From: Gemmatimonadota bacterium
Lineage (GTDB): Bacteria; Gemmatimonadota; Gemmatimonadetes; Gemmatimonadales; Gemmatimonadaceae
NCBI GenBank assembly: GCA_028287235.1
Contig: JAQBQB010000009.1
Coordinates: forward strand, 62,001-126,000
Length of the DNA: 64,000 nt
Direction: 5' to 3'
Positions within the stretch are counted from its first letter, which is position 1, and every line of letters begins with the position of its first letter. Below the pieces are notes generated by a model that was not told the DNA's origin, did no database searches, and saw nothing but the letters and a program-made list of their open reading frames with translations. A program made the position numbers and the translations under genes. Shown one piece after another: positions 55,191 to 57,259 of this stretch.

Positions 55191-56070
55191 CTATGCGCGT
55201 TGCGAGATCGACAGCTCGCGCCGCTTCCGCGGCTCGCTCGTCACTGCCAGCAAGTCAGCGTCGTCCGGTTGGTCGTAGCACTTGAGCATGGTGTCCAGGT
55301 CGGTCCGCCCACCGGCCACCGTCACGGCCTTGAGCGCGTGGTGCGACCGCTCCGAGCGCCACTTCCGGCGGTACGGGTGACACGTCCCACCGAGGACTTC
55401 GGCAGCCCTGCCGCCTCCTCCGCCTGCCGAATGCGCTGCGACAGCAACTCACTCGGCGCTGGCAGCTCGGCATCATCGCCGCGCGCGAACACCAACCCGC
55501 CGACCGCTCCGAGCCGCCGCTGAAATTCGCGGACGATGTTGAAGAACTCGTCGGAGTAGCTCACGAGCCATGAGCGCTTCTTCTTGTCGTGCTCCGCGCG
55601 CCAGGCGACGCGACGGTGCTCAAAGTCGAAGTCGGACCAGCGAAAGCCCATCGGCGGCGTCCTGTGGCTTCCAACAGCACGAGGCCGAACTCCGCCCGCA
55701 CCCAGGAGAGATATCGATTCCTGGCCCGCGAGCGAGCGGCGGCGCTCTCGGAAGTCCGCACCTCTTCGGCGTACCGAGCCTGAAAATCGAGCATGGCCCG
55801 GCGCGTCGCCTCGAAGCGATCGAGGCTGGCGACCGGACGCTGAACGTCGGCTTCGCCCTTCACCCGCACATATGCGAGCGGATTCCGGTCGAGCCAGGGG
55901 CTCCCGCCGGGCATGGGCCGAGTGCAGGCCCAGCAGAGCATCTGCTTGAGCAGCTTGACGTCCGCCTGGACGCTCCGCTGTCGGACTGCGGGCGTGACCA
56001 GCTGCTTGGGTCCGAACCGGATGCCGCCAGCGCGGCGACGTGCCTCGTACTGCCGCCTGCTCTTCCCTAT
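55191..56070 (-). pseudogene. Tyrosine-type site-specific recombinase (integrase) remnant, at least two frameshifts
   Basis: Three frames joined: KLLKQMLCWACTRPMPGGSPWLDRNPL.../MGFRWSDFDFEHRRVAWRAEHDKKKRSWLVSYSDE.../HPYRRKWRSERSHHALKAVTVAGGRTDLDTMLKCYDQPDDADLLAVTSEPRKRRE*. Confidence 0.85.
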
Positions 56071-56083
56071 AAGCGGACGAATT

Positions 56084-56198
56084 ATAGAATATAGTCTATA
56101 TTTATATGCAGTTAGTATAGACTATAATCTATTGGCACCAGAGATTCCAATAGACTAAACTCTATACGACTGGCCCACGGCAATAGATTATAGTCTAT
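56084..56198. promoter_or_regulatory. Four 16-bp operator-like dyads ATAGA-N6-TCTAT at exact 33-bp spacing
   Basis: 56084-56099, 56117-56132, 56150-56165, 56183-56198; AT-rich intergenic region between the integrase remnant and the HTH gene; TATAAT -10-like hexamer at 56123-56128. Confidence 0.85.
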
Positions 56199-56210
56199 AG
56201 CGAGGATGAC

Positions 56211-56672
56211 ATGACCGCATCCCTTCAGCGACTGCGAGCGCGTCAACTAGATGAATTACTTGGCGAGCTGAAGCCCTTAATTACACTGCGGCCCCCTCGC
56301 CAAGGCTGGATTCAGGCAATCCGCACCGCGCTGGGAATGACAACGTCCCAACTGGCTAAACGCATGGACATCACTCAGCCCAGTGTCTCCGCGATGGAGA
56401 AGAATGAAGCCCGAGGCGCAATTAGTCTCAGCAAGCTTCAGAAGGCAGCCGAGGCGATCAACTGCGACCTCGTGTATGCACTGGTACCACGCGAGTCCCT
56501 CCAAGTGAGTCTTGAGCGCCAGGTGCGACAGGTAGTGTGGCAGCGCATCAAGCGCACGGCACACACGATGGCATTAGAAGAACAAGCCGTGCCTGACTCG
56601 CATCTTCGAGCACAAGTGGAAGAAATGGTGCAGCAGGCGATGAGCAAGCTTCCACCGAACCTATGGGACTAG
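56211..56672 (+). CDS. Mobile mystery protein A (Xre-family HTH)
   Basis: QGWIQAIRTALGMTTSQLAKRMDITQPSVSAMEKNEARGAISLSKLQKAAEAINCDLVYALVP. Confidence 0.9.
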   Translation: MTASLQRLRARQLDELLGELKPLITLRPPRQGWIQAIRTALGMTTSQLAKRMDITQPSVSAMEKNEARGAISLSKLQKAAEAINCDLVYALVPRESLQVSLERQVRQVVWQRIKRTAHTMALEEQAVPDSHLRAQVEEMVQQAMSKLPPNLWD

Positions 56673-57259
56673 GCAGTATCGGATTTCCAACTCCTGAAGG
56701 CGCCACGCCACTCGATGAGGACGAGGCGCAGGATCTGATACCCACGCACATCGCCACCGTCTCACAACTCAACGAGTGGGAACAGGCGAACATCCTTCAA
56801 GCGGAGGAGTGGCTGTTTGCGCGCCGGAGACCGCAGATGCTAACGGAGCCTTTTGTGCGAGGCCTTCACCGTAGGATGTTCAACAAGACCTGGAAATGGG
56901 CCGGCAAATACAGACAGACAGAAAAGAGCATCGGAGTTACACCCAGCCAGATACCGAGCAAAGTCAGAGACACCTGTGACGACGTCGAATATTGGCTCGA
57001 GAAACGCGTATTCCCGTTGGACGAAGCCGCGATTCGTCTGCATCACCGGCTCGTCTCCGTCCACCCGTTCCCAAATGGGAACGGCAGGCAGACACGACTG
57101 ATGGCAGATGCACTTCTCCACTACAACGGGTTGGCCCGGTTCACATGGGGAAGTGAGAATCTTCAGACCACCGGTAATGCGCGATCGCGATACCTTCGCG
57201 CGCTCCGACAGGCCGATGAAGGCGACTACTCGCCCCTTCTCGCGTTTGCAAAAAGCTGA
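56663..57259 (+). CDS. Mobile mystery protein B (Fic/DOC family)
   Basis: Fic motif VHPFPNGNGRQTRLMADALL; LHRRMFNKTWKWAGKYRQTEKSIGV; overlaps the upstream gene by 10 bp. Confidence 0.93.
   Translation: MGLGSIGFPTPEGATPLDEDEAQDLIPTHIATVSQLNEWEQANILQAEEWLFARRRPQMLTEPFVRGLHRRMFNKTWKWAGKYRQTEKSIGVTPSQIPSKVRDTCDDVEYWLEKRVFPLDEAAIRLHHRLVSVHPFPNGNGRQTRLMADALLHYNGLARFTWGSENLQTTGNARSRYLRALRQADEGDYSPLLAFAKS

Follow-up and report, generated by a model that had tools for sequence, protein, structure and literature searches.

Antitoxins with a helix-turn-helix (HTH) domain repress their own operons through palindromic sites; HipB, for instance, binds cooperatively to four such sites (PMC3920265). In Escherichia coli hipBA the gene for this XRE-type HTH antitoxin stands first in the operon, downstream of four palindromes of the form TATCC-N8-GGATA (PMC3920265), and the operator centres, measured here in strain K-12, are 28, 39 and 28 bp apart. 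The lambdoid-type and PaaR2/YdaS arrays consist of several evenly spaced 18-bp palindromes that lie over promoters and are bound by HTH regulators, and the CP-933P prophage carries four of them at equal intervals (PMC8630535). In the Xre-RES system of Pseudomonas putida, an XRE antitoxin has repeats in its own promoter, and the complex may engage two sites simultaneously (PMC12204516). The Kis-Kid (parD) module of plasmid R1 has an autoregulated toxin-antitoxin operator of two inverted repeats, one of them over the -10, with a 33-bp spacer (PMC3920265). As those 33 bp are the spacer between 18-bp repeats, the pitch of the Kis-Kid sites is larger than 33 bp. Kis, moreover, is not known to be an XRE-type HTH protein. 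For the mobile mystery protein A/B family, a TIGR02612-like antitoxin adjoining a fic gene has been noted (PMC3936711), and those parts of the open-access literature that were searched describe no operator or regulation of the family. Nor did open-access papers yield a comparable operator with a 33-bp or helically phased arrangement of sites.

The locus considered here lies in a stretch of 64,000 nucleotides from a Gemmatimonadota bacterium (the window), and its profile scores clearly mark it as a member of this family. The first gene, mmpA (56211..56672, + strand), encodes an XRE-type HTH protein of 153 aa that scores 167.1 bits against TIGR02612 (cut-off 122.6), with an HTH_3 domain at residues 34-89 and a recognition helix, assigned by its position in the HTH, at codons 54-62 (56370..56396, + strand). 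Directly downstream, in a reading frame that overlaps the end of mmpA, mmpB (56663..57259, + strand) encodes a Fic-domain protein of 198 aa that matches TIGR02613 at 250.2 bits (cut-off 124.4) as well as Pfam Fic. The two genes are linked in nearly all loci, and the arrangement is consistent with a type II toxin-antitoxin module in which MmpB would be the putative toxin. The MmpB motif HPFPNGNGRQTR deviates from HxFx[D/E]GNGRxxR at the acidic residue alone, which is Asn instead; the motif of the family is HPFPNGNGRxxR, with an Asn that is nearly invariant across the alignment in place of the Asp or Glu of canonical Fic enzymes, and MmpB may differ in activity from those enzymes. Two further matches of MmpB are to PDC-S04, a candidate defence family of PADLOC (E = 7e-24), and to SoFic (2e-13).

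The promoter and leader of mmpA are occupied by an array of four 16-bp dyads of the form ATAGA-N6-TCTAT, palindromes to which no strand is assigned, each found both by exact pattern match and as a repeat (family D1): ATAGA-ATATAG-TCTAT (56084..56099), ATAGA-CTATAA-TCTAT (56117..56132), ATAGA-CTAAAC-TCTAT (56150..56165) and ATAGA-TTATAG-TCTAT (56183..56198). Their starts are separated by 33, 33 and 33 bp, exactly as an earlier note on this DNA had read them. The pattern is not expected by chance in the window, as judged from 100 dinucleotide shuffles of it, and in the whole 5.73-Mb genome it occurs at these four places only, where base composition predicts approximately 0.35 occurrences. With 10.5 bp to a turn, a spacing of 33 bp amounts to 3.14 turns; this puts the sites approximately, though not exactly, on one face of the DNA, and the earlier note's claim of a single face holds in that looser sense. 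The 19-bp inverted pair that it had pointed out (56116-56134 and 56181-56199) is present in the sequence but was dropped as a separate feature: each dyad is itself a palindrome, and any two similar palindromes automatically yield such a pair.

A predicted sigma-70-like promoter, TTTATA-16-TATAAT (56101..56128, + strand; consensus scan, 10/12 matches), is the best match on that strand, and its -10 at 56123-56128, central in dyad 2, is the TATAAT already noticed inside this dyad; dyad 4, again as noticed, carries TATAAT on the other strand. A second, weaker match has its -10, a -10-like hexamer, in the middle of dyad 3. The placement in dyad 2 is reproduced by an independent score, in itself no evidence of function, and predicted -10 elements also sit at dyad centres in several mmpA relatives. 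Dyad 4 ends twelve bases before the mmpA start and is closely followed by the probable Shine-Dalgarno sequence AGGA (56203..56206, + strand; read from the sequence).

In outline the array resembles each of the systems above, and it differs from each in particulars. It shares with hipBA the leading XRE-type antitoxin gene and the four upstream palindromes, and by analogy it may work in the manner of HipB-type multi-site autoregulation. It was nevertheless rejected as a HipB operator because both letters and spacing fail (ATAGA-N6-TCTAT at 33 bp, against TATCC-N8-GGATA at 28/39/28 bp); furthermore, the partner of HipB is a kinase and that of MmpA a Fic protein, MmpA has additional N- and C-terminal parts, and its sequence similarity to HipB is weak. 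Even spacing over a promoter is a feature shared with the lambdoid-type and PaaR2/YdaS arrays, yet those form a divergent switch of phage type in which two regulators compete, whereas mmpAB is a single operon whose spacing is kept in distant relatives. Xre-RES has repeats in the promoter of its own XRE antitoxin, but the sites are about 20 bp apart, the toxin is a RES protein and there is no four-site 33-bp array. Kis-Kid likewise has a repeat over the -10 and the figure of 33 bp in its operator, but two sites only.

Whether the spacing is a property of the family can be judged from its relatives. Members of TIGR02612 came from the host's phylum, where 39 of 395 genomes passed the cut-off and further stretches were added, and from alpha- and gammaproteobacterial plasmids. 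With identical copies removed, this gave 58 upstream regions (-180 to +20 of starts set by homology or annotation), one of which is from the window itself. Spacings of 18-70 bp were scanned for pairs of palindromes (each with at least 5/8 base pairs) that resembled one another at no fewer than 11/18 bases, the spacing of interest, 33 bp, having been preset from the window. Pairs at exactly 33 bp were found in 33 of the 58 regions, which share ancestry, against a mean of 0.17 and a maximum of 2 in shuffled sequences; the remaining spacings were 66 bp in 13 regions, 32 bp in 4, 34 bp in 2, and 0 to 3 for all others. When related regions were grouped, the 33-bp spacing was present in 32/53 groups. 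Thirteen regions fetched later, including three loci on viral contigs found with two narrow alignments, gave 33 bp in 4, only 64 or 66 bp in 3, 32 bp in 1 and none in 5. Chains fitted to the regions, which are illustrative because the fit permits spacings of 32-34 or 66 bp only, link three or four consecutive dyads in many lineages, and the final dyad of a chain mostly lies no more than about 40 bp from the start codon. The earlier note had suggested that ATAGA-N6-TCTAT dyads with fixed spacing be sought upstream of homologues: the 33-bp spacing does recur there, while the exact motif is not widespread.

An AT-rich promoter might produce TATA-like palindromes whose regular spacing is accidental, and the TATA-like centres of the dyads, together with an AT content of 67% in the array compared with 33% in the window, lend this some plausibility. 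Dinucleotide shuffles of the same regions, however, do not reproduce the spacing, other XRE promoters are spaced differently, and the arms of the dyads track MmpA, as described below. The homologue comparison thus refutes a chance origin of the spacing, and composition as the source of the array is left with a negligible probability.

Those other promoters belong to 39 XRE-type genes of the same phylum with weak matches to TIGR02612, where a 33-bp pair, itself GC-rich, occurred in 1/39, and where arrays, if present, were spaced at 23, 27, 50 or 54 bp. Taken with the 28/39/28 bp of E. coli hipBA, this indicates that the 33-bp pitch is, on the sequences compared, a hallmark of the MmpA family that XRE regulators do not generally share. 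Four HipB-like genes of the same phylum (L068, L071, L073 and L094) have dyad arrays of their own (AGAAACCTATAGGTTTCT-like and TTCAAGCTATAGCTTGAA) with pitches of 23 and 27 bp, and each XRE family may possess a separate ruler.

The family is not uniform in this respect. Approximately one third of mmpA homologues, including one clade, have no clear dyad array and may use another operator. In that clade (L013, L021, L025 and L112) several members share a TGACA-N-ATTATTCTTTC-like upstream stretch, perhaps a different operator. In the phage collection the search for mmpA relatives came up empty, and searches with a single protein recovered one relative in genome contigs and none in viral contigs. 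When viral contigs were scanned blind for a pair of TATAG-N6-CTATA dyads 33 bp apart, there were two matches, one inside an apparent coding sequence and one adjoining another HTH-like gene; as neither was accompanied by mmpA, the letters alone do not identify an mmpA system. On one viral contig (L110, 1640-1760) TCTATA-type dyads at 33 bp stand beside a small HTH-like gene with no mmpA, and the pitch may consequently occur outside the MmpA family.

The letters of the dyads are more variable than their spacing. The arms are ATAGA/TCTAT in the window, GTAAG/CTTAC in L003, ACAAG/CTTGT in L015, ATCAG/CTGAT in rhizobia, GTCCTA/TAGGAC in L011, L020 and L123, and GTATC/GATAC in Vibrio and Shewanella. 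Residues 54-62 of MmpA, the recognition helix, tend to pair with particular arms: QP[ST] with ATAG, [RQ]Q[AG] with CAAG, PQ[ST] with CAG and [KR]T with CTA. Across 26 loci, proteins more alike at these residues tend to have more similar arms (r = 0.35, p = 0.0005); the relation persists once overall protein similarity is removed (partial r = 0.23, p = 0.001), and the corresponding correlation with the dyad core is not significant (0.09, p = 0.16). The signal is not exclusive to the helix, since residues 113-130 also co-vary with the sites (0.20, p = 0.006), and a finer scan shows a further peak at residues 79-84. The case for MmpA as the binder of the dyads is accordingly good but indirect.

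As the 33-bp spacing has been kept in distant relatives although the letters have changed, the array is very probably the row of sites at which MmpA binds its own operon. We consider it highly likely, and the preferred reading, that this is the autoregulatory operator of mmpA-mmpB, with MmpA dimers on dyads every 33 bp and the -10 covered. The cooperative autoregulatory operator proposed in the earlier note thereby gains support at the level of sequence, from fixed 33-bp dyads that recur upstream of homologues and from arms that co-vary with the helix. We infer that MmpA binds as dimers, with one recognition helix to each arm, and that four such dimers, one every 33 bp, would line up close to a single helix face, neighbours probably aiding each other's binding. 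Dyads filled in this way would cover the -10 in dyad 2, perhaps that in dyad 3, and the leader, so that transcription of mmpA and mmpB would be repressed to a degree that follows the level of free MmpA or of an MmpA-MmpB complex. Either the C-terminal part of MmpA or MmpB could provide the contact between dimers; a model of MmpA made from the single sequence had a mean pLDDT of 48, too low to show how dimers would touch.

That the spacing is stricter than the letters suggests that protein geometry is the constraint. A tentative elaboration is that MmpA acts as a molecular ruler, its dimers joined by the C-terminal part or by MmpB in a geometry conserved across phyla, which would set the 33-bp repeat and leave the letters free to change; if true, this would mean cooperative, switch-like control that holds the Fic partner off. 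It is also possible, though doubtful, that MmpA alone binds weakly and that a two-headed MmpA-MmpB complex bridges the sites and sets the 33 bp, with MmpB as co-repressor and an excess of toxin breaking the complex (conditional cooperativity). Such bridging would have precedents in Xre-RES, where a 4:2 complex was modelled on a pair of sites separated by about 20 bp (PMC12204516), and in HipA as co-repressor of HipB (PMC3920265), and it would fit the near-constant linkage of mmpA and mmpB. One locus (L009), however, retains mmpA and a perfect four-dyad 33-bp array although an internal deletion has left only the first and last stretches of its mmpB (from about 1930). This suggests that MmpB is not essential, but the loss could be recent.

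The earlier note had offered a recombinase or iteron-like site as the alternative to an MmpA operator. An iteron, centromere-like or recombinase site would serve replication, partition or mobility of the mmpAB element; repeats at regular intervals are common in sites of this kind, plasmids and mobile regions do carry mmpAB, and integrase genes adjoin it in a few relatives. Yet the array accompanies mmpA on chromosomes and unrelated plasmids alike, always immediately upstream of its start; its letters follow the MmpA helix, and it has no second copy anywhere in the genome. Among the neighbouring proteins scanned there was no replication initiator or recombinase domain, apart from a PHROG integrase match at E = 0.11. 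The alternative therefore gained no support, and we regard it as very improbable. That match falls in the divergent open frames (55322-55941, - strand) which had been labelled an integrase remnant, a label left unproven because this was the single and best match, with none in Pfam or NCBIfam.

The probable autoregulatory operator thus belongs to the known kind of multi-operator XRE antitoxin, and what appears to be new, being undescribed in the open papers searched, is a spacing conserved across a family while the letters diverge. A family-wide operator of 33-bp pitch says what probably controls mmpA and mmpB and leads one to expect in MmpA a repressor that is specific and cooperative, and the lineages offer many natural pairs of recognition helix and site with which DNA specificity could be tested. 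On a plasmid of Rhizobium ruizarguesonis (L047, 1-1200) an AbiEii-like gene and a nucleotidyltransferase gene precede mmpA, and two dyads 33 bp apart fall within the end of the upstream coding sequence. On a Shewanella plasmid (L057) mmpAB is flanked by qatD of the Qat anti-phage system and by a type I restriction gene.
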